DNA of 64,000 bases from Nitrospira sp. (GTDB lineage: Bacteria > Nitrospirota > Nitrospiria > Nitrospirales > Nitrospiraceae). Below the pieces are notes generated by a model. That model was not told where the DNA came from and did not search any database. It worked only from the letters and a program-made list of their open reading frames with translations. The stretch lies in the NCBI GenBank assembly GCA_024330965.1, contig JANDJL010000001.1, positions 62,001 to 126,000 on the forward strand, in the 5' to 3' direction. Numbering within the stretch: the first letter of the stretch is position 1; every line of letters begins with the position of its first letter. Position numbers and translations under genes: made by a program. Positions 2,434 through 62,920 of the stretch are shown here, one piece after another.

Positions 2434-2638
2434 AAAGACCCTCCTGCGCCATGCCACATCACCTTACCTCGCAGGCACAAGCGAACACAATCGGAAAGCC
2501 GGTGACTCACGATGGCTAGCCGGTATCACTATCGATGACGAACAAAACCCGCTCGACAAGACATCCGAACTGTTCGTAAGATTCCTTGTGCAGGCTGGCT
2601 ATCCCACGGTGCGTGGTTGATGAGAGAATGGACATAGC

Positions 2639-2971: not shown

Positions 2972-2990
2972 CGTGCTCTCCTTCGTCGCT

Positions 2991-3007
2991 TGTTTCATGT
3001 TGAAACA
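2991..3007. promoter_or_regulatory. Perfect 7-3-7 palindrome, candidate operator
   Basis: TGTTTCA and TGAAACA are separated by TGT, forming a perfect inverted repeat just upstream of the promoter of the lysine catabolism genes. If transcription starts near 3045 the palindrome is centred at about -46, where an activator would bind; the region lacks a good -35 box. The identity of the regulator is unknown. Confidence 0.5.
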
Positions 3008-3031
3008 GATGCCCGCCTTTCGATGATCGAG

Positions 3032-3037
3032 TATAAT
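3032..3037 (+). promoter_or_regulatory. Consensus -10 box directly before the start codon
   Basis: A perfect TATAAT ends nine bases before the ATG at 3046, and no Shine-Dalgarno sequence lies between. The spacing would place the transcription start at or next to the ATG, so the lysine operon message may be leaderless. No -35 hexamer at 16-18 bases spacing resembles consensus. Confidence 0.5.
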
Positions 3038-3045
3038 TCTCCATC

Positions 3046-41266: not shown

Positions 41267-41353
41267 GGTTCTGAATATGGCAGACTTAAACGACCCGGAT
41301 CAATGGAGCAATATGGCAGGCTGGCCGAGCTGGAGCGGTAGATGCTCTCCTGT

Positions 41354-43282: not shown

Positions 43283-43331
43283 GAAGTTTTTTCCGAACAG
43301 TCCGGCGTCTTGTGCGCGACAGCGGCGGCAT

Positions 43332-43337
43332 ATTATA
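43332..43337 (-). promoter_or_regulatory. Possible -10 box of the treZ operon
   Basis: A perfect TATAAT is read on the minus strand about 50 bases before the treZ start, in the divergent treZ/glgX spacer. The -35 region is not close to consensus, so the promoter may need an activator, or the match is chance. Confidence 0.3.
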
Positions 43338-43376
43338 CATAGAACAAGCCATGAGTCGTTGTCCTGAGAAAAAAAG

Positions 43377-45509
43377 ATGAGGGTGTGGCCTGGAAAACCC
43401 TACCCGCTCGGTGCCACATGGGACGGGCAAGGAGTGAACTTCGCGCTCTTTTCCGAACATGCCACGGCCGTCGATCTCTGCCTGTTCGACGGGCCAAAAC
43501 ATGCGAAGGAATCTCTGCGTATTCGAATGGAAGAACGCACCGACCAAATTTGGCACGTCTATATTCCAGGGCTCTGGCCTGGTCAACATTATGGCTATCG
43601 CGTCCACGGCCCGTACGCGCCGGAAGAGGGCCATCGGTTCAATCCGGCGAAACTGTTGATCGATCCCTATGCCAAGGCCATCGCCGGAACGATCGAGTGG
43701 TCCGACGCGATGTTCGGCTATCGGATCGGCGATCCCCAAGCCGATCTGTCGATCGACCTACAGGACAACGCCGCGAACGTTCCCAAATGCGTCGTCATCG
43801 ACCCGGCCTTTTCATGGGGCGGAGACACGCAACTGAAGACATCGTGGGACAAAACCATCATTTATGAACTGCACGTGAAAGGGTTCACGGCGCGGCATCC
43901 GAACGTGCCGGAATCCATGCGCGGCACCTATGCGGCGTTGACGACTCCGGCCGTGTTGGATTATTTGCTCGATCTCGGGATTACAGCTGTCGAACTGTTG
44001 CCGATCCACCATTTTGTACGCGATCGGCACCTGGCGGAACGAGGACTGACGAATTATTGGGGATACAACACGATCGGTTTCTTCTCGCCGGATATCCGCT
44101 ATGCTGTCTCCCCCGTGGATGCGCGCCATGTGCGCGAGTTCAAAACCATGGTCAAGACACTGCACAGTGCCGGGATCGAGGTCATTTTGGACGTTGTGTA
44201 CAACCATACCGCGGAAGGCAATCACCTGGGCCCCACATTGTCGTTCCGTGGTATCGACAACATGTCCTATTACCGGCTGGTGTCGGACAACCGTCGCTTC
44301 TACATGGATTACACCGGTTGCGGCAACACGCTCAACGTCACACATCCTCGGACGCTGCAACTCATCATGGATAGCCTTCGATATTGGGTTGTGGACATGC
44401 ACGTGGACGGGTTTCGCTTCGACCTTGCGTCCGCCCTTGCGCGCGAGCTGCACGCCGTCGATCGATTGAGCGCGTTCTTCGATATTCTGCATCAGGATCC
44501 CATTCTCTCCCAGGTCAAACTCATCGCCGAACCGTGGGACGTCGGCGAAGGCGGGTATCAAGTGGGCAACTTTCCAGTCGGCTGGGCCGAATGGAACGGA
44601 AAATACCGAGACACCATTCGGCGGTACGTCAAAGGAGACGGAGGGCAAGTTGGCGAACTGGCCTATCGCCTCACCGGCAGCAGCGACCTGTACGAGGCCA
44701 GCGGCCGCCGGCCGTTCGCCAGCATCAATTTCGTCACGGCTCACGACGGATTCACGCTGCATGATCTGGTGTCCTACAACCACAAGCACAATGAGGCCAA
44801 TGGCGAGGACAACCGCGACGGCACCGACGACAACCTCAGTTGGAATTGTGGCGTAGAAGGACCGACGAACGATCCGGCCGTCAGAGAGCTACGCGAACGG
44901 CAAAAACGGAACTTTCTGTCCCTTCTCCTACTTTCCCAAGGGGTCCCGATGCTCTGCGGCGGGGATGAGATCGGCCGTACCCAGCAGGGCAACAATAACG
45001 CCTATTGCCAAGACAACGAGATCAGTTGGTACGACTGGAAACTGGACGCGGCGAAGCGAGAGCTTTTGTCTTTTGTGCGCAACCTGATCGTCTTCCGCAA
45101 ACGACATCCGGTCTTGCGGCGGCGGCGGTTTTTTCAAGGACGCCGACTCCGTGGCTCTGAAGTCAAAGACCTCTCCTGGTTCAGGCCGGACGGGAAAGAG
45201 ATGACCGATGACGATTGGAACGCCGGCTATGTCAAGTCGCTCGCGCTCCGACTTGCCGGAGACGCGATCAGCGAAACCGACGACAAGGGACGCCCCATCA
45301 TCGACGATACCCTGTTGATTCTCTTGAACGCCCACCATGAACCGTTGACGTTTACCCTCCCCGCGCACAAACGGGGGGTACGGTGGCGTCCTGTCTTCGA
45401 CACCTCGGCCAAACCAAACGCCAAAAATCTCAACCCGGTGTTCAAAGGAGGCGAACGGTACGATTTACAAGGCCGATCGATTGCCGTCCTGAGGCTGGGT
45501 GATCAATAG
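43377..45509 (+). CDS. glgX: Glycogen debranching enzyme GlgX / TreX-type isoamylase
   Basis: A 710-residue GH13 isoamylase-type enzyme that cleaves alpha-1,6 branches of glycogen. It begins with the CBM48-like [18 protein letters not shown], then [34 protein letters not shown], the nucleophile-region [10 protein letters not shown], the acid region [14 protein letters not shown] and [13 protein letters not shown]. Together with the divergent treZ and treY it completes the TreX-TreY-TreZ pathway, supplying linear maltodextrins. It converges on the lipoprotein gene 22 bases downstream. Confidence 0.94.
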
Positions 45510-46766: not shown

Positions 46767-47873
46767 TCACGGACGCTCGTATCGCCGACCGGTTATCGGG
46801 TCGAACAGGTGCAATGTTTCCCACCCCATTTCGACGACGACGGCTTCTCCGATCTTGGGAAGGTATCCTGGGATCGTAACGCCGACGATCGTGACGGCCT
46901 TGTCCGAGTCGGACAGTTCCACCGTCACCCACACCATAGGCCAGGCCGGTTCTACCAACCTGACGATCCCTTGCACAGCCCGTCCCGTTTTCTCCTCGGT
47001 TACCGGACCGACAGTGACGTCTTCCGGCCTGACCCCGACGGTTACCGTTCGCCCCGGCGCAACCGTCGACGCCTCAGGCAGCAACGGAAAGCGCAACGGT
47101 CCGGCCGTCATCATCCCCTCTTCCATCCGCGCGTCGAACAAATTCATCGTCGGATACCCCACGAAAGCAGCAACAAAAACGTCGGCCGGTCTGTCATAGA
47201 CCTCCCGAGGACAACCGACTTGTCGGAGCCCCCCCTGATGGAGCACACCGAGCCGATCGCCCATCGTCAGGGCCTCGCTTTGATCGTGCGTCACATAAAC
47301 AGTCGTCACCTTGAACTCTTCATGAAGACGTCGCAGTTCGGCCCGCATGGCGGCCCGCAACTGGGCATCCAGGTTGGACAAGGGTTCATCCAGCAAGAAC
47401 AGTCTGGGCTTTCTGATCAAGGCCCTCCCAAGGGCCACCCGTTGCCGCTGCCCGCCCGACAACTCTTGCGGTCGCCGATCCAACAGCGCATTAATCCCTA
47501 ACACGTCGGCCATCCGTCGCACTTCGTCTTCGATCATGGTGTGATCAAGTCGCCGTGCCTTTTTCCGAACGCGAAGCGGGAAAGACAGATTGTCACGGAC
47601 CGTCATGTGCGGATAGAGCGCATAGGTTTGAAACACCAACGCCACGTCCCGCTCCCGCGGGTCCAGATCGGTGACGTCCCTGCCGTCGAACAAGATGCGG
47701 CCGGACGTCGGCTGATCCAACCCCGCCAGCAGATGCAAGAGGGTTGATTTCCCGCAGCCGGACGGCCCGACCAGCACGAAAAATTCCCCGTCTCCCACCG
47801 TCAGATTGAGCGAATGAAGGATCGTCGCGATTCCGATCCGCTTCTCCAGTCCCTCGATACGCACCTCAGTCAT
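46767..47873 (-). CDS. Sugar ABC transporter ATP-binding protein (MalK/UgpC type)
   Basis: A 368-residue ATPase of a carbohydrate importer. Walker A GPSGCGKST (36-44), Q-loop FQTYALYPHM, signature LSGGQ (138-142), Walker B LFLLDEP (158-164) and a C-terminal TOBE/OB region (235-368) that marks the MalK subgroup. It drives the two permeases encoded just upstream; the gap to the second permease gene is four bases. Confidence 0.95.
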   Translation of the reverse strand: MTEVRIEGLEKRIGIATILHSLNLTVGDGEFFVLVGPSGCGKSTLLHLLAGLDQPTSGRILFDGRDVTDLDPRERDVALVFQTYALYPHMTVRDNLSFPLRVRKKARRLDHTMIEDEVRRMADVLGINALLDRRPQELSGGQRQRVALGRALIRKPRLFLLDEPLSNLDAQLRAAMRAELRRLHEEFKVTTVYVTHDQSEALTMGDRLGVLHQGGLRQVGCPREVYDRPADVFVAAFVGYPTMNLFDARMEEGMMTAGPLRFPLLPEASTVAPGRTVTVGVRPEDVTVGPVTEEKTGRAVQGIVRLVEPAWPMVWVTVELSDSDKAVTIVGVTIPGYLPKIGEAVVVEMGWETLHLFDPITGRRYERP

Positions 47874-47877
47874 CCCG

Positions 47878-48738
47878 TCATCCCTTCACGCTTCCGGCCG
47901 TCAGTCCTGCAATAAGATGCCGGTTGAAGAAGGCCGCGAGTCCCACGACCGGCAGCGTCACGATGACCGACGCCGCGGCGAGGTCTCCCCAGGGAACGTC
48001 ATGGAGCCCTGGAAACAACGCGATCGCCACCGGGGCGGTTCGCGCCGCGTCGCTCGCTGTCAGCGTCAAGGCAAACATGAACTCGTTCCATGAGTGGATG
48101 AACGTCAACAATCCCGCCACCGCCAGTCCGGGTCTCGCCAACGGAAGCACCACAGTCAGCAAGGCCCTGAGCGGGGTGCAGCCGTCGACGCGCGCGGCAT
48201 GATACAGCTCACGGGGCAACTGTCGAAACGCGACCGTCAGAAGCCAAGTCGTCAACGGAAGCGCATGGACCGTGTGCGCGAGCCCCAAAGCGATCAGGCT
48301 GTCCTGCAATCCCATCTCCCGCATCGTCAGATACAAAGGACTGATGATCGCGATCGGCGGAAACATCGAAGCCATGAGGATCACCCCCAGAATCATCGGC
48401 CGTCCCGTTATCGGCAATCGGGCCAACGTGAATGCACAGCACGAACCGAGCACGAGGGCAACGGCGGTCGCGCCCATCGCGACCGCCGCACTGTTGATCA
48501 GGGCTTGAACCAGCGACGAGTGGAACAACACCCGTTCGTAATGCGCCGCGGTCAACCGCGTCGGGAGAAGAGGGGGCAATCGCACCAGTTCCTCATCCGG
48601 CTTCACGGACGCGACGACCTGCCAACCGAGCGGGCCAAGGCAGAACATCGCGACGGTCGCCAGCAGGCAAACGTTCCGTCCCGCAGAAGCAACGTCCCAA
48701 CCAACCCAGCGATCGCGGCATGTGCGTTCCCGATCCAT
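47878..48738 (-). CDS. Sugar ABC transporter permease, MalG type
   Basis: A 286-residue inner membrane protein with about six membrane segments and the ATPase-contact EAA loop AARVDGCTPLRALLTVVLPLARP. The ATG at 48738 shares a base with the stop of the other permease (TGATG), which decides the start over a long upstream frame to 49161 that overlaps that gene. It pairs with the MalF-type permease. Confidence 0.93.
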   Translation of the reverse strand: MDRERTCRDRWVGWDVASAGRNVCLLATVAMFCLGPLGWQVVASVKPDEELVRLPPLLPTRLTAAHYERVLFHSSLVQALINSAAVAMGATAVALVLGSCCAFTLARLPITGRPMILGVILMASMFPPIAIISPLYLTMREMGLQDSLIALGLAHTVHALPLTTWLLTVAFRQLPRELYHAARVDGCTPLRALLTVVLPLARPGLAVAGLLTFIHSWNEFMFALTLTASDAARTAPVAIALFPGLHDVPWGDLAAASVIVTLPVVGLAAFFNRHLIAGLTAGSVKG

Positions 48739-49673
48739 CACACCATGTCCCGCACCCGTCGCCGCAGCAACAGCACATAGAACAAAGACAGTATCACTGA
48801 AATCAGGAACATCGCTGTCGCCAGCGCGGAGCCATACCCCAATTGCAAGGACTGAAAAAGCGTTTTGTAGGCATAGATCGAGAGAGTTTCCGTGGTGTTG
48901 CCAGGCCCTCCGCCGGTCAACACATAGACCGCGTCGAACACCCGCACGGCATCCATGGTCCGAAACACCAGCGTGATCAGGATGACGGGAGTCAGCAGCG
49001 GCAGCGTGATCGACCGAAATCCGTCCCACCATCCCGCGCCGTCGATTCGCACGGCGGCGCGCAAGTCCTGCGGCAAGGCCTTTAATCCGGCCAGCATCAT
49101 CAAGGCGGCGAAGGGAGTGGTCTTCCACACGTCCATGATGATGGCCGCGTGGATGGCCCAACGGGGATCAGCCAGCCAATCGATCGACGCGGCGACGCCG
49201 ATGCGAGCCAGCGCATAATTGAGAAGGCCGTAATCGGGTTGATACAGCCAAAGCCACATCTGGGCCGACACGACCGTCGGAACGGTCCAGGGCACGATGG
49301 CGACGGTTTGGGCCAGACGACCGAATCGCGTCCGTTCGTCGGTCAGGCCGTCCAGAAGCAACGCAAGCCCCAATCCGATCGGCAATTCCAGTCCCACCGA
49401 GAGACAGGTGAAATAGAGGGTCGTCCCGAGGGCGGCCCAGAACCGTTCGTCGCCGAGCAGGTCCAGATAGTTTGCAAGCCCGACGAACTCGTCCACACCG
49501 AAAATGGGCAGGCGATGTCGGAGGCTCAGCCAGAGCGCCGCCGCGATCGGAGCAAGCGCCATGAGCACGACCAGCGTCATCGCTGGAGCGGCAAACACAT
49601 AGCCCCAGACCCGTTCGGAGAGGTTCCATCGACGTCCGTCGGCTTTTTGATCGTTGAAAGCGGCGACCTTCAT
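48738..49673 (-). CDS. Sugar ABC transporter permease, MalF type
   Basis: A 311-residue inner membrane protein with about six membrane segments and the EAA loop AVRIDGAGWWDGFRSITLPLLTP. It begins with a charged cytoplasmic stretch and a hydrophobic segment at about 26-48. Its ATG overlaps the stop of the binding-protein gene by four bases. Confidence 0.93.
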   Translation of the reverse strand: MKVAAFNDQKADGRRWNLSERVWGYVFAAPAMTLVVLMALAPIAAALWLSLRHRLPIFGVDEFVGLANYLDLLGDERFWAALGTTLYFTCLSVGLELPIGLGLALLLDGLTDERTRFGRLAQTVAIVPWTVPTVVSAQMWLWLYQPDYGLLNYALARIGVAASIDWLADPRWAIHAAIIMDVWKTTPFAALMMLAGLKALPQDLRAAVRIDGAGWWDGFRSITLPLLTPVILITLVFRTMDAVRVFDAVYVLTGGGPGNTTETLSIYAYKTLFQSLQLGYGSALATAMFLISVILSLFYVLLLRRRVRDMV

Positions 49674-50950
49674 GGTTCGCGCTCCGCCGATGTCCTCACA
49701 CGTCTCGGCAAGAGGCGATCTCCCTGACGGCGAATAGCGTGAAGCACGTCGCGGGGCTCCTTCGTCCCGACCACGAGCGCGCTCAATTCGGGCTGCGCCG
49801 CTTGAGACAGCAAGAGATAATAGGGCGTGATCGGCCTGGGTCTTGCGCTTAGAAAGATGGACAACAGATCCTTGAGGATCGGCTTCGCATCCAACAGTGG
49901 TTGCTCGGCATACAGAGCGATTCTCGTCGGATTGTAGCCGAGTTCCATGGCCATCCTGCGCTGAACGTCCGGGGACGAGAGAAACTCAATGAGGTCGCGC
50001 GCCTCCTTTTGATGGGGCGAGTGTTTGGCGACCGCCAGCACCCATCCGCCTAAGACCGAGGCGCCGGACAAACCAGGAAAGGCCGGAATAGGCCCGACGC
50101 CGATCTTTCCTTGGACCGGCGAACCCTCCCGTTGTAACAACGACCAGGCGTACGGCCAGTTCCGCATGAACAGAGCTCGTCCCTCGCCGAACAGCCGACG
50201 AGTCGAATCCTCATCGGCCATGCCAATCGAGAGGGGCGAGATCTTGTGTTTCCAGACGAGATCGCGCAGGAGTTGCAATCCCTCCTCGGCCCGATCGCGA
50301 TCTCCCACCCACAGATCGCTCCCGTTGCTCCTAAGCACTTCAAGGGCGACACAGACCAGCCCTTCGTATTGCCTTCCTTGCCACACAAAGCCGACCAATT
50401 TAGGGTCCCGTTCCGCCTCCAGGACCAGACGAGCCGCGCGAAGCAGCTCCGGCCACGTTCTCGGAGGGTCGAGCGCGTACCGTTCCAACAGATCTTTCCG
50501 ATAATAGAGGACTCCGGCGTCGATGTACCACGGCACGGCATAGAGCTTGCCATCCCATGTCGCAGCCTCAATCGGCCCTGGGAAAAAGTCTTCCCGCCGT
50601 ATCGTCGACGGCGGATCATCCAAAGGAGCAATCCATCCGGCCTTAGAGAATTCCTGAACCCAAATCACGTCCAGACTCAGCACATCGAATGGAGCGCGTC
50701 CACCGTCAAGGCTCATGGTGTAATATTGATGCTGTTGGTCCGAAGAAGAAGGCAGCACTTCTTCCCGCACGGTCACGCCGGGATGCCGTCGCTCGAATTC
50801 CCGCAGCAGGCCGCTCAACGTGCGTTCGTCGCCGGAGAGTCGTCCATGCTTAAAGATCAAGACCTTCGAAGCGGCCTGGGATGCGTCATCCCTCTGTGTA
50901 CAGCCAAGGATCGACACCAGGGACAACAGGATCCATGCTCGCATCATCAC
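49670..50950 (-). CDS. Sugar ABC transporter substrate-binding lipoprotein
   Basis: A 426-residue extracytoplasmic solute-binding protein of the carbohydrate family 1 type. Lipobox SILGC gives Cys17. Typical parts are LLREFERRHPGVTVREE, DVLSLDVIWVQEFSKAGWIAPLDD, YAVPWYIDAGVLYYRKDLLE and the late GGWVLAVAKHS. The ligand cannot be read from sequence; trehalose is favoured by resemblance to trehalose/maltose binders and by context. Its ATG overlaps the stop of the channel-like gene. Confidence 0.92.
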   Translation of the reverse strand: MMMRAWILLSLVSILGCTQRDDASQAASKVLIFKHGRLSGDERTLSGLLREFERRHPGVTVREEVLPSSSDQQHQYYTMSLDGGRAPFDVLSLDVIWVQEFSKAGWIAPLDDPPSTIRREDFFPGPIEAATWDGKLYAVPWYIDAGVLYYRKDLLERYALDPPRTWPELLRAARLVLEAERDPKLVGFVWQGRQYEGLVCVALEVLRSNGSDLWVGDRDRAEEGLQLLRDLVWKHKISPLSIGMADEDSTRRLFGEGRALFMRNWPYAWSLLQREGSPVQGKIGVGPIPAFPGLSGASVLGGWVLAVAKHSPHQKEARDLIEFLSSPDVQRRMAMELGYNPTRIALYAEQPLLDAKPILKDLLSIFLSARPRPITPYYLLLSQAAQPELSALVVGTKEPRDVLHAIRRQGDRLLPRRVRTSAEREP

Positions 50951-51654
50951 ATGTGCCGCAAATCGTCAGGCGATCGGTCTCGTCCGCGACCGGACAACGT
51001 TCGCTCAAGGTAGTCCTTGGCCAGATCTTTGGCGCCGAGCCCGAACGCCAGACAGGCGGCGAACACGATCCCGCCGAACGTAATGCCGAACCCGACGATC
51101 ACCACGCTGGCCGCGATACCCAATTCTTCCAGCGCCATGGCAAGCGCGAACAGGCGCACGCCCCACCGAGAGAGGCTCGCGATCAGTCTCGCCGGAGGGA
51201 GGCTCGCATTGACCGCCGCAATCAAGACCCCCTGTGAAATAAAATTCGACAGCAGGTAGCCGGCGATCAGAATCACGGCGGCGATCAAGACGTGAGGAAT
51301 ATAAGCCAAGAGCGATTGGGCGAATTGATTAATCGGTTTGAGATTGAGTGCGCCCAGCCCGGCAATCATCGCGAAGAGGACAATGACCCAATAGGTCATG
51401 CGACCCACGATCTGCGAGGGATCCGACTTGACTCCTCCACGACCCAGCGCTGCATTGACGCCGAGCCGATCGCATAAATGGTCTAACCTCACAACCCGCA
51501 ACAATCGCTCGACGGCATACCCCAGTGCCCAGGCCACGACGAATCCGACTCCGATGATGATGGCCATTGCCAGGACGTTCGGCAAAATCGCCAGGACTTG
51601 CCGACCCAAGTGCTCCAACGGCGCAAGCAACGCTTTGTCAAAAAAGTCCTGCAT
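50947..51654 (-). CDS. TM-helix (mechanosensitive-channel-like) membrane protein
   Basis: A 235-residue membrane protein with conserved TM-helix repeats: about five hydrophobic segments (roughly 18-42, 78-100, 110-136, 155-172 and 178-205), glycine-rich, with DLAKDYLER at the end as in small relatives of MscS that lack the large cytoplasmic domain. The ATG at 51654 follows a strong GGAGGGAGG stretch. It lies between the glycosyltransferase and the sugar importer, suggesting release of a solute on hypo-osmotic shock; that is inference. Confidence 0.85.
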   Translation of the reverse strand: MQDFFDKALLAPLEHLGRQVLAILPNVLAMAIIIGVGFVVAWALGYAVERLLRVVRLDHLCDRLGVNAALGRGGVKSDPSQIVGRMTYWVIVLFAMIAGLGALNLKPINQFAQSLLAYIPHVLIAAVILIAGYLLSNFISQGVLIAAVNASLPPARLIASLSRWGVRLFALAMALEELGIAASVVIVGFGITFGGIVFAACLAFGLGAKDLAKDYLERTLSGRGRDRSPDDLRHM

Positions 51655-51690
51655 GTCCGCCTCCCTCCTTGCCGTCCACACCGCCGGCGT

Positions 51691-52989
51691 TTACGAACGT
51701 GGCCTGCTGTTCCAGCGATCGACGAGATAGGGTTTCTGTTCCTCAAACGCCAAACACAAGTGCTCGATCCTCCTCTCCGCTTCGGCGGAGGTGAGCCCCT
51801 GGGTCTCCAGCACAAAGGTCGCCGTTCGCCCAAGATACAGCGGCGTGAGGGCCTTCAACAGATGTTCGCGAGGCATCACGCGGCCGTGGTAGGCCACGGC
51901 CGCTTCATAAATAATGCGGACCCAGAGATCGTCCGGAATGCGAAACTCGACGGGAGAAGCCGCCCGGAGGGGCAACAGCTCCGCGACAATCTCCCGCCCC
52001 AGCATCTGTTCCCAGATGGGGGCCAGATCGTCCGTGCCTTGCCGAAACGCGAGAATCATTCGATCCACGTTCACATGAACCGGCTCGACACCCACTTCGT
52101 ACTGAAACCCGAAAATTTTGACCGGCACGGAACCGCTCGTCTTAAGCCAGACCTCTTGGTGTTCTTCCATCAGCGCAAACGAGGCCCCCAAGACCTGCAT
52201 CAACATGGCGGCCAAATCGGCGGACGGATCCTTGGGATTGTGGATTTTGGCTCCGAGAAAACTCTGGCAGACACGGGCGCCGCTTGCGATGGCTTCGGTC
52301 GTCATCCAAATATCGATGCCGAATCGCGCCACATCCGACTCCCAGACGTGCTGATCCAAATAATGCTCGGCCAGCCGGCCGGAAAACCCAAAATCGCCGC
52401 CGATCGGCTGCCTGATTCGCTGGCCGTACAATGCCCTTGTGAGGGGGTAGACGATACTGTTCGTAATGGTCCCGTCGTACTTGTGGCGGAGATAGTAGGG
52501 TGCAACGTAGTCGTAGTGCTCGTCAAGAACGGGCCGCAAGAGCAATTCGATCCATTCGGGCGTGATGCTGCGCAAATCGGAATCCACCACCGCACAGGCC
52601 TTCGCATTGAGTCGGCGCGCAATCTCAAAAATCGTCCTGAACGCGCTGCCTTTTCCCGGAATGCCATGATACGGTGTGATGATCTTTTGAAGCCGGCTTT
52701 GGTGATCACTGATGAGAAGAGCGCCGTAGTCGACAACCGACCGTGCGACGACCTCGGTTGTGTTGTCGGACGATCCTCCGTCGGAATTCACAAGCACGGC
52801 CCGTTGGCCGGGAAAATATTTCGCCAGGCCCGCGCTGACGGCCCGCACCACGTGACCGATGGTGTCGGCATTGTTGTAGCTAGGAATGCCGACCAGAAGA
52901 TCGGCCCGCTCGATGTCGGACAATCTGGACTCCGTTTCCTCGGCGAGAGAGACGGACGGTCTTGTTGATCGAGCGTCTTGCGTCTTCAT
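51691..52989 (-). CDS. Family 2 glycosyltransferase, second enzyme of the GpgS operon
   Basis: A 432-residue GT-A glycosyltransferase with VGIPSYNNADTIG (33-45), SDGGSSDNT (69-77) and the metal-binding DSD (136-138). The C-terminal half has GGDFGFSG and a helical extension. It resembles glucosyl-3-phosphoglycerate synthases more than ordinary GT2 enzymes but is distinct from the real GpgS next door. The acceptor is unknown; a second sugar on glucosylglycerate, or a mannosyl variant, is possible. Its ATG overlaps the gpgS stop by four bases. Confidence 0.87.
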   Translation of the reverse strand: MKTQDARSTRPSVSLAEETESRLSDIERADLLVGIPSYNNADTIGHVVRAVSAGLAKYFPGQRAVLVNSDGGSSDNTTEVVARSVVDYGALLISDHQSRLQKIITPYHGIPGKGSAFRTIFEIARRLNAKACAVVDSDLRSITPEWIELLLRPVLDEHYDYVAPYYLRHKYDGTITNSIVYPLTRALYGQRIRQPIGGDFGFSGRLAEHYLDQHVWESDVARFGIDIWMTTEAIASGARVCQSFLGAKIHNPKDPSADLAAMLMQVLGASFALMEEHQEVWLKTSGSVPVKIFGFQYEVGVEPVHVNVDRMILAFRQGTDDLAPIWEQMLGREIVAELLPLRAASPVEFRIPDDLWVRIIYEAAVAYHGRVMPREHLLKALTPLYLGRTATFVLETQGLTSAEAERRIEHLCLAFEEQKPYLVDRWNSRPRS

Positions 52990-54209
52990 TTAGTGGGATC
53001 CCATCGATGGTCTTCTTCCACCGCATTCACCAAGCGGTCAAAGAAATCCGGAACCGCCGCCGCCACTCGGCTCCAATTGGAAATCATAGGAACTCCCAAC
53101 GGGTCCTTCTGGAACACGTCCGAGGCCAGTTTGATCCCTTTGAGAAACGTCTCGACGGCGGTTCGCTCCGCGTGTCGGTCGAACTTCAAACTGTTGATAG
53201 CCGCGCTATCTTCGTACCGGCGGATGGCTTCTTCGGCCAATCGGAGATACGTGGCCCGCAACGTCTTCAGCTCCGCGTCGCCGAGTACCACTCCCAGGCT
53301 GGATAAATGACGAAACAACGATTTTGAAATATCCACCGTCATCTTGAGGAGGCCTTTTTCGGGGTCGTCGGGAGACAGGGTCTGGTGCTTATGCTCATAG
53401 GCATCCGCGATATCCGCTTGACAGACGCGCCGCAGCGCGCAATTGCGGAAGACTTCGGCCAGAGTCCCGATTTCCAACCCCCAATCGCCCGGAATGCGGT
53501 TGACCCAGGCCAGATCACGCACCATGGCAAATTCCCCTGCAAGCGGATAGCGGAAACTGTCCAAAAACGCCAGCAATGGCTGGTCGCCAACCAGTTGCTG
53601 TAATGAGCGAATGACCGGCGTGAAAAACAGCCGGGTCACACGCCCGTGCAACCGGTCCGTGACGCGACTGTAATAGCCCTTGCAGAATTCATAGCCCAAA
53701 TTGGGATTGGCCACCGGGTAACACAGCCGAGCCAAGTATTCCCTCTTGTAGCTCACGATGTCGCAGTCGTGCAGTGCGATCACTTGACTTTGGCGGCGGG
53801 CCAGCACGTATCCGAAGGCGAGCCAGCACGATTGCCCCTTCCCCGGCAATCCGACGTCGATTTCCCGCTCGACCAACGTTTTCAGGAGATCTTGAATCCG
53901 TGCGCCGTCGATCCAGACGAGCCGAACGAATTGCGGGAGTACCTTGAAGTAGTCCCTGGCGCGACGAAATTCAAGGGGCGATGCGCATCCTAATGCGACC
54001 ACGATCTCGTTCAGATACGACACCTGCTTCAATTCCGCTACGATGCCGGACAGCGCAGGTCCCTCAAGTTCGGAATAGAGGCACGGCAGCACCAACGCAA
54101 TCGGGTTGACGGTGCGATACTGTTCGAGCTCGTGTTCCAGCCGATCCACATTGGGAGGACCCAGGCGATGGAGCACGCTGACCACTCCATTTTGAAAGAA
54201 ATCCGCCAT
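52986..54209 (-). CDS. gpgS: Glucosyl-3-phosphoglycerate synthase
   Basis: A 407-residue GT81-type glycosyltransferase that transfers glucose from a nucleotide sugar to 3-phosphoglycerate, the first step of glucosylglycerate synthesis. Characteristic parts are LPCLYSELEGPA, GLPGKGQS (120-127), the metal site ALHDCDI (DCD 148-150), YPVANPNLGYEFCKGYY, GRVTRLFFTP, GEFAM and DWGLEIG. I cannot fully rule out mannosyl-3-phosphoglycerate synthase, which shares several motifs. First gene of an eight-gene operon and divergent from its likely phosphatase partner. Confidence 0.9.
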   Translation of the reverse strand: MADFFQNGVVSVLHRLGPPNVDRLEHELEQYRTVNPIALVLPCLYSELEGPALSGIVAELKQVSYLNEIVVALGCASPLEFRRARDYFKVLPQFVRLVWIDGARIQDLLKTLVEREIDVGLPGKGQSCWLAFGYVLARRQSQVIALHDCDIVSYKREYLARLCYPVANPNLGYEFCKGYYSRVTDRLHGRVTRLFFTPVIRSLQQLVGDQPLLAFLDSFRYPLAGEFAMVRDLAWVNRIPGDWGLEIGTLAEVFRNCALRRVCQADIADAYEHKHQTLSPDDPEKGLLKMTVDISKSLFRHLSSLGVVLGDAELKTLRATYLRLAEEAIRRYEDSAAINSLKFDRHAERTAVETFLKGIKLASDVFQKDPLGVPMISNWSRVAAAVPDFFDRLVNAVEEDHRWDPTK

Positions 54210-54484
54210 CTGATTCTCCTCTCAACTTTTGAAGTCGCTCTTTCATGAGCCCGAATGCCACGACTCGTTCGCTCAGAGAGCTGGCATCGCATCCTCGCCG
54301 AATCGCTCTCAGTCTGATTTGTACCTTGCTCTCGCCCCCTATTTCAAACTGTCTGTCGGCGGTTCAAGAAGTGGAAACCGGAGACATCCCTTTCATCAAT
54401 CCTTTCTGTCATCTACAATTGTCACGACAGCGTCCTCATGCACGCGGAGCGGACCGCAAGGCGACACAACGGCAATCAAGCGCG

Positions 54485-55324
54485 ATGAGCGGGAACGCAA
54501 CATCTTCGTGGAGCATGGTCGTCTTTACGGATCTGGACGGCACCCTGTTGAACAGCCGAACCTATCGGTTCGACGAGGCGCGCGAGGCATTGGATGCTCT
54601 GCAGGCCCGCGGGATTCCGACCGTTCTCGTTTCGAGCAAGACGCGGGCGGAGATGGAACCGATCCGCTCTCAATTGCGCAACGGTCACCCGTTCATCGTG
54701 GAAAACGGAGGCGCTGTGTTTATTCCGGCGGAGTATTTCTTGTTCCCTCTTCCCGGCACCAGAGCGTCCGGTCCTTATCGCATCGTCGAATTCGGCACTC
54801 CTTATTCTCTTCTCCGTCAAGCGTTGAAGGAGATCGAACGTGACATCGGCCTGTCTCTCACGGGATACGGCGACTTGTCGGCCGATGACGTTGCATTACG
54901 AACGGGCCTGTCTTCTGAGGAAGCGGCCTTGGCCAAACAACGAGAGTACGACGAACCGTTTTTCATCGAAGGAACCCATCGCGTCCCCCCCGAACTCGCG
55001 GCAGCCATCAGGAGCCGAGGACTGAACTGGACCACGGGAGACCGCTGTCATCACCTGATGGGTCCTCAGGATAAGGGGCGCGCCGTTCGCCGTCTCATTC
55101 AATACTACCGACAGGCTGCCAGGGACCATCACCACCGGCTCACGACGGTCGCCGTCGGAAACAGTCTCAATGATCTGCCGATGTTGGCGGCTGTGGACAG
55201 GCCCATCCTCCTCCAGCAAGCGGACGGGGTCTATGCCGCCGGTATTGATCTGCCTGGCCTCATTCGAGCCCCGGCGCCAGGTCCGACCGGATGGAATCAG
55301 GCGATCCTTTCGTTGCTGCAATGA
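54485..55324 (+). CDS. Glucosyl/mannosyl-3-phosphoglycerate phosphatase (HAD-IIB)
   Basis: A 279-residue HAD hydrolase with DLDGT (Asp16 and Asp18), VLVSSKTRAEM (motif II), ENGGAVFIP and GNSLNDLPML (motif IV), features shared with MpgP/GpgP enzymes that remove phosphate from the glycosyl-3-phosphoglycerate product. It is divergent from gpgS across a 275-base spacer that should hold both promoters. The frame extends upstream to 54245 but that part overlaps no conserved sequence, and the ATG at 54485 or 54515 fits the family; neither has a strong ribosome site. Confidence 0.82.
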   Translation: MSGNATSSWSMVVFTDLDGTLLNSRTYRFDEAREALDALQARGIPTVLVSSKTRAEMEPIRSQLRNGHPFIVENGGAVFIPAEYFLFPLPGTRASGPYRIVEFGTPYSLLRQALKEIERDIGLSLTGYGDLSADDVALRTGLSSEEAALAKQREYDEPFFIEGTHRVPPELAAAIRSRGLNWTTGDRCHHLMGPQDKGRAVRRLIQYYRQAARDHHHRLTTVAVGNSLNDLPMLAAVDRPILLQQADGVYAAGIDLPGLIRAPAPGPTGWNQAILSLLQ

Positions 55325-55483: not shown

Positions 55484-56272
55484 TTAGCGGCTTGTGCGCG
55501 TTGTTTCCGGTGTTCCGTCGAGGCGGTGAACCAAAAACCGCAGCACGTCCTCCACTTCGCTTTGATGCTTGACATAGTACCGTGCCCGAGAGTGGGCCTG
55601 GTGCCCGACACGGACCCCTAGCATCAGCCCTTCCTGCATGGCGAAGACCGTTTCGTCGGTTTCATCGTCTCCGATAAAAAACAGCCCCGTACAGTGGAGA
55701 TGAGTCATAAGGGCGAACGAAGCCTTCCCTTTTCCGGGGCTCCCGGGAGGAAGAAGGTTGACCGAGGCTTTACCCGGCATCACTTGCGGAGAAGGAGTCA
55801 ACCGCTTGGCCACGTGAGCCAACTGACGTTCGACAGCGCCCGGATCATCCACTCCTCGATAATGAAGCGTCAAACTATAGCGTTTGTTTTCGATCACGAC
55901 GCGGGTGTCGGCAAAGAACCGAGCCTTATGTTCTTCCAGTTGTTTCATCCATCCCGAACAGATGAGATCCATATCGTTCAATGCGGCGGCCGGCATCAGC
56001 GGGCTTTCGGCCCCATGGTTTCCGATCAGATGAGGCACCGCTCCGTTGACGCGCAGGGCCAGATCGTCGAGCGCCCTTCCCGAGACCACGGCGCACGGCA
56101 CGCGCCGAGCCAATTCTCGCAGCCATTCGTGCATGGTCGGCGAAAGTTTGACGCTCTCGCGCTCGGATGAGATTTTGGCCAGGGTTCCGTCAAAATCAAA
56201 CGCATACAGCACGGATCGGTTGACCATTTTTCTGAGGGCATCTCGCCCTTCATCTGACAAGAGGTAGATCAT
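55484..56272 (-). CDS. otsB: Trehalose-6-phosphate phosphatase
   Basis: A 262-residue HAD-type phosphatase that releases trehalose from trehalose 6-phosphate. Motifs are DFDGT (Asp26 and Asp28), VVSGR (motif II), LIGNHGAE, the GKGKAS lysine segment and GDDETDE (motif IV). Length matches bacterial OtsB. Its ATG overlaps the otsA stop (ATGA). Confidence 0.95.
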   Translation of the reverse strand: MIYLLSDEGRDALRKMVNRSVLYAFDFDGTLAKISSERESVKLSPTMHEWLRELARRVPCAVVSGRALDDLALRVNGAVPHLIGNHGAESPLMPAAALNDMDLICSGWMKQLEEHKARFFADTRVVIENKRYSLTLHYRGVDDPGAVERQLAHVAKRLTPSPQVMPGKASVNLLPPGSPGKGKASFALMTHLHCTGLFFIGDDETDETVFAMQEGLMLGVRVGHQAHSRARYYVKHQSEVEDVLRFLVHRLDGTPETTRTSR

Positions 56273-58518
56273 GTCTGTTCTCCGACCGTCCTCTCAATGC
56301 TCCTGCCGCCCATTTCCCGCGCGAGACGGGCCCGCTGCCTCATACGAGCCGCGTCCATCAGCATCCGACCTGCCCAGCGATAGACGTTGAACTCTTGAAC
56401 GATTCCACGCAGACTGCGCATCCTGGCCTGTTGCTCGACTCTGGACATCGTCAAGGCGACATGCATGGCCGCCGCACATTGATCGATATTGTAAGGATTC
56501 ACGATCAGGGCCTCCACCAGTTCGGCCGCCGCGCCGGTAAACTGGCTCAGAATCAAGACTCCCTGCTCGTCATCCCTAGCGGCGACGAATTCTTTGGCAA
56601 CCAGATTCATGCCATCGTGCAAGCTGTTCACGATACAAAAGTCGGCCGCCCGATAATACAGGGCGATCTGTTCCGGCTCATGGTGCTCGATCTTGAGGTG
56701 GATGGGCCGATAGCCGTCCCGTCCGAACCGCCGGTTGATACGATCCGCCGACGCCTGGACTTGCTGTTCCAGTTGTCGATACTCTTCGATTTTAGATCGG
56801 CTGGGCGCCGCCACCTGCAGAAAGGAAAAGTGGCCGATCCATTCCGGTTCAAGCTCAAGCAGCCGTTCAACCGCCAAGAATCGTTCGAGGATGCCCTTTG
56901 TATAATCCAGCCGCTCAATGCCGACTCCCAATCGATGTCCGTGAGGCAATCCATAAATCGCCCGGATGTGTGTTCGGCACGTCTCCACGGGCGGGGTCTG
57001 AGACAGCACCCGACTTGGCCATTCGATAGAGATCGGATAGTGGTTGACCGCCGTCAATTTCCCACCATATGAAATAGTGGCGCAGTCTCGATCGATACGG
57101 CTTTCCAAGGATCTGTCTACCGTATCAATGAAGTTACTGCAATGAAATCGCGTGTGAAAACCAAGGATACTGCTGCCCAACAGTCCCTCGAGAATGTCAC
57201 GATACCAGGGACAAATCGCATACCGTTCCGGATTAGGCCATGGGATATGCCAAAACATGATGATCGTGGCATGCGGCAAATGATCCCTGACGATTTTCGG
57301 CACAAGCGCAAGATGATAGTCCTGCACCAGCACAACGGGATTGTCGGTCTTGGCCTCCTCGATAATCGCTGTCGCAAACCGTTCATTGATCGTTTTGTAG
57401 AGCCGCCAATCAGAAGACCGGAAGATCGGCCGAACGTGGGCCAGATGGCACAGCGGCCAGAGCCCTTCGTTCGAAAACCCATAGTAATAGCCGTTCTCCT
57501 CCTCAGGAGTCATCCAGATCCGCCGAATCTCGTAAGCCGGCGATTCGGGAGGCACCCGCACATGATCCTGTTCGTCAACGACGAATCGGTCGGCGCTGCC
57601 GCTTCCGTGAGCGATCCAAATTCCCGAACAGGCCCGCATGATCGGCTCCAAGGCCGTGACGAGCCCACTGGCCGGCACCTGTACGCCGATACGCTCTGCA
57701 TACTGAGTATGAATGTACGGCTCCCGATTCGAGGCGATCAGCACTTCGTCGCCGGCAAGGTGGTCATGCAAGATGGCTTTGAGCGTGGCTGGTTTCCAGC
57801 TCAATTGACTCTCATCTCGCATCCGTTTATCCATCTGTAGTTCGTGGATCATAGCCCGGAGATCTTGAGCGACCGGCTGAAGTTCCGGGATCTGCCGCTG
57901 ATCCTTGATCAATCCGATCAAGCCTTCACCCCGCAACATGCCACGCACCCCCTCCACCCAACCGCGCCAACTCAAATGCGCCACCACGACTGTCACGAGC
58001 GAAATCATGACTCCGATACCCACAAAGAGATAGAACAAATACCATTTTGTGGCGCTGCTTCGCCGCTCGACCCAACTCATGTCATGAATGAGCAGGAGCC
58101 GTCCCAGCGAACGGCCTGCATGGTCGATCCCTACGGTGGCCACGTGCACGGGGCCCTGCGCCAGCCGCACGACGGCAGCGGGGCCGGACTTGAGCTCAAC
58201 GGCTCGTTCACAAGAAATCGACGCTGGGTAGGTTTGAGTTTTATAGGTCAACTGATTATGTGCGTCGCAAAATCCGACGGCATACAGTCGTTCATCTTGA
58301 ATTACCCGTTGAAAGTACGCCAACAATTTTGTTCTCGACTCTGACATCAGCAGCTCCGTCAGCGGTCCTTCCATCGTGCCGGCGATCAGTTGCGCCCGAA
58401 TCTCGATATCGCGAACAAACCATTTCAACGTGAGATTGTCGACCAACGGAATCACGCCGTATGCGATGCCGGCCAGAACCACCATCAGGGGGAAGAGAAA
58501 ACGAATGGACAGGCGCAA
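56269..58518 (-). CDS. otsA: Membrane-anchored trehalose-6-phosphate synthase with extracytoplasmic sensor-like domain
   Basis: A 749-residue protein, far longer than the usual 450-500. TM1 is at about 6-26, an extracytoplasmic domain at 27-158, TM2 at 159-181 and a HAMP-like linker at 182-235. The GT20 domain (about 257-735) retains [47 protein letters not shown] and [11 protein letters not shown], so the residues for UDP/ADP-glucose and glucose 6-phosphate use are kept. The TTG start at 58518 is backed by a strong GAGAGGTGAT ribosome site. The layout, like a sensor kinase, suggests that an outside signal controls synthesis. Overlaps otsB. Confidence 0.92.
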
Positions 58519-58566
58519 GGATCACCTCTCATTTACTTCCGACGAAAAATCGCCTATGGTACCGAC

Positions 58567-60351
58567 ATGTACCCCTATGGATTGGTGGGTAACTGCCAGA
58601 CGTCAGCGCTCATCGGATTAAACGGCGCCGTCGAATGGATGTGCGCGCCGCGCCCCGACAGCCCTCCTCTCTTCGGTCGCCTCCTGGACCCGGACGGCGG
58701 ACACTTTGAAATCGCCAGTACCGCTCCGGCCGAACATGTGACGAGCCGACAACACTATCTTCCCAACACCAACGTCCTCGTGACAACGTTCACCACCGCC
58801 CGCGGTGATGCGTTTCAAATCACGGATTTCTGTCCCCGTTTTGAACAGTACGGCCGCGTCTATCGACCGACCGCGCTGTTCAGGCTGGCCGAGCCGCTCC
58901 ATGGCACCCCCATTATTCGCGTCAGTTGCCGCCCCATCTCAGGATGGGACAAAACGCCGGTGCAACCGCTGCGGGGAAGCAACCATGTGCGGTACGAAAT
59001 TCGAGGTGAGCCACTCCGACTGTTGACCAACATGCCGCTCACCTATCTGTGTGAGGAAACTCCAGTAGCCTTGACCCAAAAATTTTACTTCGGATTGACC
59101 TGGGGACTCGGCATTGAAAACGATTTGGTCGCCGTGACTCACGACTTTCTGGAGCAAACGATACGCTACTGGCGCACGTGGGTCAAACACTGTTCGGTTC
59201 CGCTGCTATATCAAAAAGAACTGATCCGCTCTGCGTTAGCATTGAAACTGCACTGTTTCGAGGACACGGGCGCGATCTTGGCGGCTCTGACGACGAGTCT
59301 TCCCGAACAGCCGGGCGGGAACCGAAATTGGGATTACCGGTACTGCTGGCTGCGAGATGCCTACTTCGCCCTGACGGCGTTTCATAATCTTGGGCACTTC
59401 GAAGAAATGGAGGCATTTCTGAAGTTTCTGCTGAACATCGCGCACGCGCAAGAAGATTCCCGCGATCGCCTGCGCCCCGTCTACACGTTGAGCCAAGGAC
59501 TGCCTCTTCCGGAAATCGAACATACCAACTGGGCAGGCTATCGAGGCAGCGTTCCGGTACGCAGCCACAATCAGGCGTCCGACCAAGTTCAGAACGACGC
59601 CTATGGAGAAATGATCCTCGCATTCACCCCCATCTTTTTCGATGAGCGCTTTATCGATTTGCGCACCCGCGATCTTGACGGCTTGCTGGCTCATCTGGCT
59701 GATCTTTGCGAGCGGAGCATCGGGCAACCGGATGCCGGCCTCTGGGAAATCCGCCATGCCTGGCAAGAACATTCATTCACCAATCTGCTCTGTTGGGCCG
59801 GGCTGGAACGGTTGGAACGCATCAAGCAAACCAACCACCTCTCTTCCCTTTCTCTTAACGTCACGGCAGCCAGAATTCGGGCGGCTGAAGCCCTGCTTCG
59901 CGCTGTGCAAGATGACGCGGTCAGAAACGGCCCGTCCGACATGAGCTACGACGCGGCGCTTGCGCATTTACCGATTCTCGGCTATCCGAATCGTCAGCTT
60001 TGCGAGACCACTACGTTGCAAATCGTCAGAAACCTGGCGTTTCTGGCAAACGGCCACAAAACGGGGTTCTTTTATCGTTACGTGCGCGAAGACGATTTTG
60101 GGAAGCCGGAGGCGGCGTTCGTCATTTGTTCATTTTGGATCGCGCAGGCCCTGGCTCGCCTCGATCGAACGGCCGAAGCGAGAACCATTCTGGATCATGT
60201 TCTTTCCTCCGCCAACCACGTGGGTCTGTTTTCGGAACATTTCATCCCTACGACACGCACCCAGTGCGGAAATTTTCCTCAAGCCTATTCTCATATCGGC
60301 CTCATCAACGCCGCCTTTGCCGTCAGTCCTCCCTGGAGCGAAATCCTCTAG
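58567..60351 (+). CDS. GH15 glycoside hydrolase (glucoamylase- or trehalase-like)
   Basis: A 594-residue cytoplasmic enzyme without signal peptide. The N-terminal sandwich starts YGLVGNCQTSALIGLNGAVEWMC; the alpha/alpha barrel has GGNRNWDYRYCWLRDAYF and the catalytic GLWEIRHAWQEHSFTNLLCW typical of GH15. Members are glucoamylases, glucodextranases or trehalases; standing divergent from otsA, trehalase is a sensible guess. The ATG at 58567 lacks a ribosome site. Confidence 0.9.
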   Translation: MYPYGLVGNCQTSALIGLNGAVEWMCAPRPDSPPLFGRLLDPDGGHFEIASTAPAEHVTSRQHYLPNTNVLVTTFTTARGDAFQITDFCPRFEQYGRVYRPTALFRLAEPLHGTPIIRVSCRPISGWDKTPVQPLRGSNHVRYEIRGEPLRLLTNMPLTYLCEETPVALTQKFYFGLTWGLGIENDLVAVTHDFLEQTIRYWRTWVKHCSVPLLYQKELIRSALALKLHCFEDTGAILAALTTSLPEQPGGNRNWDYRYCWLRDAYFALTAFHNLGHFEEMEAFLKFLLNIAHAQEDSRDRLRPVYTLSQGLPLPEIEHTNWAGYRGSVPVRSHNQASDQVQNDAYGEMILAFTPIFFDERFIDLRTRDLDGLLAHLADLCERSIGQPDAGLWEIRHAWQEHSFTNLLCWAGLERLERIKQTNHLSSLSLNVTAARIRAAEALLRAVQDDAVRNGPSDMSYDAALAHLPILGYPNRQLCETTTLQIVRNLAFLANGHKTGFFYRYVREDDFGKPEAAFVICSFWIAQALARLDRTAEARTILDHVLSSANHVGLFSEHFIPTTRTQCGNFPQAYSHIGLINAAFAVSPPWSEIL

Positions 60352-60752: not shown

Positions 60753-61301
60753 TCACCTCTTTTTTGTTTTGCTCGGCGGCTTTTTTTCCGGTCCTTGCCA
60801 CGTCACCCGCGCCAGAACGTCTTGATGCGCCCAACGGGTGGCCACGCGGCCTTTATAGGCCTTGACCAATTCGCGCCCCAGCCGTTGTGCCAGTCGATCG
60901 CTCGTGGTCTGCACTTCCAAATCGTGCCCCACCCGTATGATTTTCATCACGCGTTCGAGCGGGTTGATGGAAAGGGCTCGCTCCTCCACGTTGGCGATCA
61001 AGTTTCTGATTTCGGCTTCATGCTCTCGGAGGGCCGACCATTTCAGTGTCACAATGCCTTCTGGATAGTCGTCCCTGATTTTCTGGCAAGCAGGACAGAG
61101 CATCGTGCGAGTGGAGCGAGACGCCCACAACTCGCCAGCCTCGACGCGATCAAGATACCACCGTTTGTTGGCATAGATAGCATGACATGAGCGACAGATC
61201 ACGGCTCCTTTTGGCGCCTTCAGCATGGCATAGGGGTCTTGCTTGGGATGAGGCTTTTCTTTATACGAAACCGTATAGGGCTTTCCTTTTCGGTTACTCA
61301 T
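60753..61301 (-). CDS. BCAM0308-like zinc-ribbon protein
   Basis: A 182-residue protein with two CxxC pairs, CRSC (36-39) and CPAC (69-72), forming a probable zinc ribbon, and a C-terminal region of alternating charge with VATRWAHQDVLARVTW. The order resembles the BCAM0308 family, whose function is unknown. The tail is strongly basic (KKPPSKTKKR). The ATG at 61301 has AAGGAAG upstream. Confidence 0.8.
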   Translation of the reverse strand: MSNRKGKPYTVSYKEKPHPKQDPYAMLKAPKGAVICRSCHAIYANKRWYLDRVEAGELWASRSTRTMLCPACQKIRDDYPEGIVTLKWSALREHEAEIRNLIANVEERALSINPLERVMKIIRVGHDLEVQTTSDRLAQRLGRELVKAYKGRVATRWAHQDVLARVTWQGPEKKPPSKTKKR

Positions 61302-61804: not shown

Positions 61805-62920
61805 ATGACGTTGACCATTGCTGGGCTGAAGGTTCGGCTGGGATTTAGCTGGATCCTTCTTACCCTCTTCCTTACTTGGTCGCTGGCACAGAGCTATTTT
61901 CCAACTTCCTATTTAGGATTAGAGAGTCGGACATATTGGTGGATGGCGCTTGCCGGCACCGCGGGGTTCTTGGGCTCGCTTCTCTTTCATGAATGGGCTC
62001 ATGCCGCGGTCGCACGGCGCCGTCAATTTCAGGCCGCCGCCTCAACGCTCTTCCTCTTTGGAGGGGTCGCCGACACAAAGACGGAGCCGCCGGATCCCAA
62101 AACGGAATGTGTGATCGCAATCGCGGGGCCCCTCTCAAGCTTCGGTCTCGGCGCCGTGTGGTACGCGGCTTTTGAAGTCGGCTATCACGCCAATTTCCCC
62201 CTGGCCGTTTTAGGAGTATTCGGTTTTTTGGCTTTCGCGAACACGCTTCTTGGAGGAGTCAATCTTATCCCTGCTTTTCCTCTTGACGGCGGATGGCTTC
62301 TTAGGGCCTGGCTGCGTCGCCGCAACAACGATCTCCGCCGATCGACCCGTCTGGCCTGCTTGGCCGGTTCATTGTGTGGGTTCGTGTTGATGATGGCGGG
62401 ATTCTTTCAAGTCATCACCGGCCATATCCTGGCCGGGGTGTGGTGGTTCGTCATCGGATTTTTCCTTCGAGAAACGGCCGGCGCCTCCTATTACCGTCTG
62501 GTGACCCAGACGACATTGGCAAGCATGGCGATCCGACGAATCATGACGCCCAATCCCGTTACCGTTTCATCCGACACATCCGTTCAACAGTTGGTTGAAG
62601 ACTACTTTCACCGGTCCTTTCACAATATGTATCCCGTGATGGAGAACACCCGTCTGATCGGCTGCATCGGCCCTAAACAAATCTCCGCGGTTCCTCGTGA
62701 TAGATGGGCGGAGCTGACGACTCGTGACCTTGTGATTCCTTGCTCTAAAGACAACACCATCGATGTCGACAGCAACACGGAAGCGGCTTTGTCTTTGATG
62801 AACAAAACCGGTAACAGCCGTCTTCTCGTCGTGGACGGCGGTCAATTGGCCGGCGTCGTCACACTGAAAGACCTCTCAAAATTTTTGACGTTGAAAGTGA
62901 ACGTCACCCCAGCCTCCTGA
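61805..62920 (+). CDS. Site-2-protease-type M50 metallopeptidase with CBS domains
   Basis: A 371-residue membrane protein. Zinc-binding HEWAH (62-66) lies in a membrane helix, and NLIPAFPLDGG (153-163) supplies the third ligand, so it is a catalytically complete M50 protease. About six membrane segments precede a cytoplasmic pair of CBS domains (about 240-365) that in this family bind adenine nucleotides and regulate activity. Such enzymes cleave membrane-embedded substrates such as anti-sigma factors or membrane proteins. No substrate gene is adjacent. Confidence 0.92.
   Translation: MTLTIAGLKVRLGFSWILLTLFLTWSLAQSYFPTSYLGLESRTYWWMALAGTAGFLGSLLFHEWAHAAVARRRQFQAAASTLFLFGGVADTKTEPPDPKTECVIAIAGPLSSFGLGAVWYAAFEVGYHANFPLAVLGVFGFLAFANTLLGGVNLIPAFPLDGGWLLRAWLRRRNNDLRRSTRLACLAGSLCGFVLMMAGFFQVITGHILAGVWWFVIGFFLRETAGASYYRLVTQTTLASMAIRRIMTPNPVTVSSDTSVQQLVEDYFHRSFHNMYPVMENTRLIGCIGPKQISAVPRDRWAELTTRDLVIPCSKDNTIDVDSNTEAALSLMNKTGNSRLLVVDGGQLAGVVTLKDLSKFLTLKVNVTPAS

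Follow-up and report, generated by a model that had tools for sequence, protein, structure and literature searches.

Within the window, the whole 64,000-nucleotide stretch of Nitrospira sp. DNA analysed here, a gene annotated for trehalose-6-phosphate synthase (TPS) encodes a protein with a membrane module at its N terminus, followed by a glycosyltransferase family 20 (GT20) domain (Table 1). The reading frame comprises 749 codons and a stop codon. The first-pass annotation had placed it with exact coordinates and left its strand, the minus strand, unstated.

Table 1. Features of the membrane TPS gene and of the surrounding island in the window
Feature	Position	Strand	Basis
TreY	38276-41266	-	
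TreZ	41354-43282	-	
GlgX/TreX	43377-45509	+	
Sugar-type ABC transporter (ATPase, permeases, solute-binding protein)	46767-50950	-	permeases assigned by position and reading
Mechanosensitive-channel-like protein (TM-helix family)	50947-51681	-	PF05552 4e-15; NF033912 1.6e-25, slightly below cut-off
GT2/GpgS-like gene	51691-52989	-	family matches
GT2/GpgS-like gene	52986-54209	-	family matches
MPGP-family phosphatase	54245-55324	+	family match
otsB, trehalose-6-phosphate phosphatase; 4-bp overlap with the TPS stop; sole PF02358 match in the genome	55484-56272	-	
Membrane TPS gene (predicted Cache ectodomain, HAMP-derived linker, GT20), 749 aa, TTG start	56269-58518	-	ORF; PF00982 match
GT20 TPS domain, residues 258-725	56344-57747	-	PF00982 2.9e-115; identical active-site residues
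His304 codon, in place of E. coli OtsA Trp42 (sequence numbering); subfamily marker	57607-57609	-	alignment
HAMP-derived helical linker, residues 182-257, degenerate in the window protein	57748-57975	-	deep-subclade HAMP profile match; fixed helix lengths
TM2, residues ~159-181	57976-58044	-	hydropathy maximum 2.6; helix 148-195 (AlphaFold2 model)
Extracytoplasmic domain of predicted Cache/PDC fold, residues 29-158	58045-58434	-	AlphaFold2 model; Foldseek/VIA matches
TM1, residues ~7-28	58435-58500	-	hydropathy maximum 2.3; within a single long helix 2-59 (AlphaFold2 model)
Shine-Dalgarno-like GAGAGGTGA, upstream of the TPS TTG start	58522-58530	-	direct reading of the sequence
GH15 trehalase-like gene, divergent from the TPS gene; ATG 58567 is the likely start, longest ORF from 58390	58567-60351	+	start inferred from sequence

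Hydropathy analysis of the TPS protein gave two membrane helices and no further 19-residue window above the cut-off. The 130-residue segment between them (residues 29-158) is soluble, and the two-helix topology around some 130 residues outside the cytoplasm that had been read from the sequence is thereby borne out. A Pfam scan gave no credible domain in the residues before 260; a match of Adeno_E3B at TM2 lay below its own cut-off and was set aside as a hydrophobic-helix artefact.

The genome (2.86 Mb in 50 contigs) carries one GT20 gene and one PF02358 phosphatase gene, adjacent to each other. Among the loci compared, otsB directly follows the TPS gene in nearly all and a GH15 trehalase-like gene lies near it in most; no other consistently linked partner gene was found in these loci. 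In the window the called GH15 ORF runs over the start of the TPS gene in its 58390-58566 part. Its true start is probably the ATG listed in Table 1, which would leave ~48 bp between the divergent genes. Judged from its gene content, the window is a compatible-solute island. A full TreX/TreY/TreZ set (38276-45509) represents a second, independent trehalose route alongside TPS/OtsB, so the membrane TPS is not the sole way to trehalose in this genome. We infer that glucosylglycerate synthesis is encoded in the island as well. The mechanosensitive-channel-like gene and the two GT2/GpgS-like genes lie side by side, overlapping slightly or leaving short gaps (50947-54209), and a pair of GT2b and Msc-like genes is also found beside a TPS of the deep subclade (locus L122; see below), so that this linkage recurs. 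Two further genes lie beyond the trehalase: a bacterial ORF (60753-61301) with a match to the NMD3 family (PF04981, 6e-08), a family more familiar from ribosome export in archaea and eukaryotes, and, near the trehalase, a fusion of an M50 site-2-type protease with two CBS domains (61805-62920).

The nearest named relatives are Nitrospira MAGs (93%). In the genus group a match was found in 51 of 69 genomes, with the full architecture except where contig ends or frame breaks interrupt it. At 55-66% identity the same architecture occurs in named Bdellovibrionota, in Noviherbaspirillum and other Betaproteobacteria, in Peribacteraceae and in 'Deltaproteobacteria' MAGs; within the order of Noviherbaspirillum, 21 of 300 genomes have a membrane TPS. 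Full-length proteins of 38-42% identity, which form a deep subclade, are spread over many Nitrospirota families. Because the full-length ORF is kept across several phyla, the fusion is neither a chance product nor an annotation artefact.

A tree of GT20 domains, made by a quick search under a simple model and used here only for its well-supported outer splits, places all Cache-bearing proteins in a single fully supported group (69 rows), in keeping with a distinct subfamily bearing this N terminus. The group divides into two subclades, a shallow one that holds the window protein and the deep one, and it includes three rows without the module. Two of these come from the order of Noviherbaspirillum; the third is encoded on an Aminobacter plasmid (L115, 4815-6656), is 55% identical to the window protein, and has lost the Cache module but kept a single predicted TM anchor. 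The branching fits a single origin of the fusion, followed by loss of the module on two or more occasions. Other GT20 matches in Nitrospirota, in frames of ~750 aa that aligned at residues ~240-725 only, were considered as further membrane fusions and rejected: those examined begin with GT20 and thus fit TPS-TPP bifunctional enzymes, the MscS type described below excepted. At one locus (L172) a second GT20 copy (~1963-3492, minus strand) stands beside the normal one; its active-site motifs are altered (e.g. SACDGMNLT, GGDPGY), and it is perhaps a decaying or repurposed enzyme.

By sequence, the GT20 domain is complete. PF00982 matches TPS residues 260-723 with E = 2.9e-115 (386 bits against a cut-off of 32.5), and the nearest solved structures by sequence are TPS enzymes. 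The 11 mapped UDP-glucose/G6P positions of E. coli OtsA are all identical in the window protein and in each of the 65 relatives compared, which upholds the first-pass annotation of a GT20 domain with its catalytic residues kept. We took these contacts to be R9, G22, Y76, W85, D130, H154, R262, K267, R300, D361 and E369, in the numbering of the OtsA structures; the residue that we presume to be Trp40 in that numbering fell on no Trp in the alignment and was left out of the mapped set. In the W-x-G-W motif of E. coli OtsA, the second Trp (W42) corresponds to His304 in 51/51 shallow-subclade and 13/15 deep-subclade proteins, and the equivalent position is Trp in OtsA and in the bifunctional and MscS-fused GT20s. 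The motif SNREPY, which had been taken as a mark of the subfamily, did not hold up as one, being common to cytoplasmic, bifunctional and MscS-fused GT20s; as far as the alignments go, His304 is the better marker.

The His304 replacement lies near the acceptor site and raises the question of whether some other glycoside phosphate, for example glucosylglycerol phosphate, is formed, in which case the module would control another osmolyte. The earlier annotation had named such a product as evidence against its own reading. No characterised member of the subfamily is apparent, and the genomes with MscS-GT20 proteins lack a PF02358 phosphatase (see below), both of which leave room for another product. 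Against it, the mapped G6P and UDP-glucose contacts are identical, and the NCBIfam model for GgpS scored far lower (284 bits) than the TPS models PRK14501 (459 bits, cut-off 634) and OtsA TIGR02400 (397 bits, cut-off 565), all of these scores being below the equivalog cut-offs. In addition, the genes that constantly lie nearby are those for a GH15 trehalase-like protein and for an OtsB-family T6P phosphatase, in the window's genome the only one. We regard a different product as very improbable. Since the TPS models outscore GgpS, otsB adjoins and GH15 is nearby, trehalose is the best-supported end product, and trehalose-6-phosphate (T6P) is, on the same sequence evidence, the best-supported product of the membrane TPS itself.

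AlphaFold2 gave a confident model of the N-terminal module from 66 sequences (pLDDT 84.5). The model consists of a long helix, a second helix and a five-stranded sheet with one short helix. The top PDB matches of this model in Foldseek and VIA-align are nearly all Cache/PDC sensors, with Z values of ~9-13. WalK matched with Z = 12.8 (full-length integrative model) and 10.6 (crystal structure), LuxQ with 11.4, DctB with 10.3, and CitA and KinD with 9.8 each; the match at 12.8 takes in membrane helices, so that values from crystal structures are the safer measure. Cache models of Pfam (sCache_3_2, dCache_3 and sCache_4) matched the relatives, all below their cut-offs. The ectodomain is thus predicted to have a Cache/PDC sensor fold, one of the fold types proposed for comparison with this segment. 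Three ORFs of ~950 aa that matched residues 113-237 are not TPS enzymes; they encode dCache_3-PAS-GGDEF-EAL proteins (L166, L167, L168), in which the end of the ectodomain, TM2 and the linker are weakly similar to this part of the TPS.

The first-pass annotation had allowed that the extracytoplasmic part might not be conserved. Comparison of the window protein with three relatives of 93% identity gave dN/dS values of 0.07-0.09 in the ectodomain against 0.06 in GT20, with a still lower dN in the linker. By this measure, purifying selection on the ectodomain is about as strong as on the enzyme. Residues R41, R77, G139, D146 and R153 are near-invariant in the shallow and deep subclades alike. Cys84 and Cys103 occur in every one of the 51 shallow-subclade proteins, whereas the deep subclade lacks them.

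The linker was compared by profile with the nine HAMP domains of the window's own genome. The deep-subclade linker matched with a probability of 92.6% (E = 4.6e-7); none of the controls (four segments and ten column shuffles) exceeded 1.6%. The linker of the shallow subclade, to which the window protein belongs, gave 0.75%, so its HAMP is degenerate. On these profiles the linker probably derives from HAMP, recognisably so in the deep subclade, and the HAMP-like linker of the first-pass annotation therefore stands for the deep homologues and is only marginal in the window protein itself. Taken together, the predicted Cache/PDC fold, the purifying selection and the HAMP-derived linker argue for a receptor-type module fused to the TPS, as had been proposed.

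The helices that flank and follow the ectodomain have fixed lengths. Among the 66 proteins, the L11-R41 spacing is 30 residues in 64, the R153-S183 spacing is 30 in all, and the L246-N264 spacing is 18 in all; the lengths of connector and ectodomain loops vary. The P215-W241 spacing is 26 residues in 50/51 shallow-subclade proteins and 33 in 15/15 deep-subclade proteins, a difference of exactly one heptad. Rigid helix spacings are what helical coupling would predict, but the heptad step is a single evolutionary event. That one heptad change is the only observation that points to coupling in helix phase.

We consider it somewhat probable that the protein is an inner-membrane TPS built as a one-piece transmembrane receptor, in which a stimulus from outside would shift T6P synthesis. 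The Cache domain would sense a condition of the periplasm or envelope, either the osmotic or envelope state or a ligand in the Cache pocket. The stimulus would move TM2 and the HAMP-derived linker helices within a presumed dimer, and GT20 activity would thereby be raised or lowered with no kinase or transcription step; the T6P formed would pass to the adjacent OtsB. Osmolarity is a plausible signal, given the compatible-solute island and the independent MscS-GT20 fusion. A small molecule or redox may be sensed instead, or the module may only anchor the enzyme. Counting against gating are the unrecognisable HAMP of the shallow subclade, the lack of the Cys pair in the deep subclade, and the retention of the enzyme but not of the module in Aminobacter and in two genomes of the order of Noviherbaspirillum.

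Anchoring alone is the main rival to gating. The module would then only hold the TPS at the membrane, for example close to the site of sugar transport or to an osmolyte channel; the Cache domain would be a structural or dimerisation remnant that does not sense. Several observations fit: the Aminobacter enzyme does without the Cache domain and keeps its one predicted TM helix, HAMP has degenerated in the shallow subclade, and the island also holds an ABC transporter and an Msc-like gene. A simple anchor, however, has no need of a conserved ectodomain or of fixed helices, and here selection on the ectodomain nearly equals that on the enzyme, the ectodomain is kept across phyla together with its invariant cysteines (shallow subclade) and near-invariant R41, R77, D146 and R153, and the helix lengths that couple ectodomain and enzyme are fixed. 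Anchoring alone appears rather unlikely to us.

Information could also flow in the reverse direction, with the protein acting mainly as a receptor or moonlighting sensor in which GT20 would signal the state of UDP-glucose, G6P or T6P to a partner. There is a precedent of a kind in the soluble OtsA of Arthrobacter, which reportedly also serves as a sensor of osmotic stress (PMC5685639). The membrane TPS, with its mapped catalytic residues all invariant and otsB adjacent in nearly all loci, looks instead like a working biosynthetic enzyme, and the loci offer no consistently linked partner besides otsB and the GH15 trehalase; we hold this reading to be improbable. These comparisons best support the reading in which a signal from outside directly gates the synthesis of trehalose, a sugar that protects against stress, and the membrane TPS may work in this way.

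A separate kind of membrane fusion was found in one Nitrospirota genus that belongs to another family of the same class as Nitrospira. At the four loci read (L177, L179, L181 and L182; for L177, positions 1684-3885, minus strand), an N-terminal MscS-type domain is fused in frame to GT20, and a fifth species of the genus has a frame of equal length. PF00924 matched the three proteins scanned above its cut-off (8.1e-11, 1e-12 and 8.6e-12), and in the GT20 tree these proteins branch apart from the Cache group. No PF02358 phosphatase was detected in the five genomes of the genus searched and no trehalose gene among the neighbours of the fusion, which makes its product less certain. By sequence, then, two unrelated kinds of membrane module are joined to GT20 synthases, one of them from a channel family known for mechanosensing. 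The MscS-GT20 fusion is possibly the more striking find of the two.

Bacterial osmotic control of compatible solutes is usually placed at the levels of transcription, transporter gating and mechanosensitive efflux. A biosynthetic enzyme joined to an extracytoplasmic sensor would, if the gating reading is true, add a fourth route, missing so far and very fast, and Cache domains would extend beyond signalling outputs. A wider generalisation seems possible to us but rather doubtful: a class of receptor-enzymes in which a signal, probably osmotic or from the envelope, would gate a compatible-solute synthase directly, with no kinase, second messenger or transcription, and which would have two or more separate origins, as Cache-HAMP-GT20 in several phyla and as MscS-GT20 in one Nitrospirota genus. 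For Nitrospira, which are key nitrifiers, the membrane TPS offers a specific, testable stress mechanism, and the MscS-GT20 proteins would make mechanical gating of solute synthesis approachable experimentally within a single protein.

The open-licence literature that we searched yielded no account of a TPS fused to Cache or HAMP. In the parts available to us of one study of Nitrospira, the trehalose genes are named simply OtsA/OtsB and no membrane or sensor part is noted (PMC11014942); these genes probably include the membrane TPS family. The outputs reported for Cache domains are kinase, MCP, GGDEF/EAL, cyclase and phosphatase, in a survey that had selected for signalling outputs, and the yeast osmosensor Sln1 contains a Cache domain (PMC4822843). 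In Thermoproteus tenax, one of the genes of the msc-gt-tpsp operon encodes a mechanosensitive channel; a partner glycosyltransferase is required for TPS activity (PMC3634074).

The membrane TPS shares with E. coli OtsA and other soluble GT20 synthases the GT20 fold, the mapped UDP-glucose/G6P contacts and the pairing with OtsB. It differs from OtsA, which is soluble and has no N-terminal module, by ~257 additional residues, two TM helices, the predicted Cache domain, His304 and a GT20 clade of its own. The three-gene OtsB-GH15-TPS cluster of Ramlibacter tataouinensis is shared by the betaproteobacterial loci and, compared by its description only, is assigned to osmoprotectant metabolism, the portion of the report available to us mentioning no membrane module (PMC3164672). 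The T. tenax operon likewise links a trehalose synthase genetically to a mechanosensitive channel, but its TPSP is soluble and its channel a separate protein, whereas the membrane TPS combines sensor module and synthesis in one polypeptide and the channel domain of MscS-GT20 is fused. With the Cache/PDC receptors (WalK, CitA, DctB, LuxQ, KinD and the Cache-GGDEF-EAL proteins) the membrane TPS has in common the predicted ectodomain fold, the two-TM layout and, in the deep subclade, the HAMP-derived linker; their outputs are signalling domains, whereas its output is a biosynthetic glycosyltransferase. Because GT20 is its sole cytoplasmic domain, with no HK, MCP, GGDEF, EAL or cyclase domain, we do not file it among the Cache signalling receptor families. 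The parts are known from these systems, and their combination as Cache-HAMP-GT20 appears to be new.
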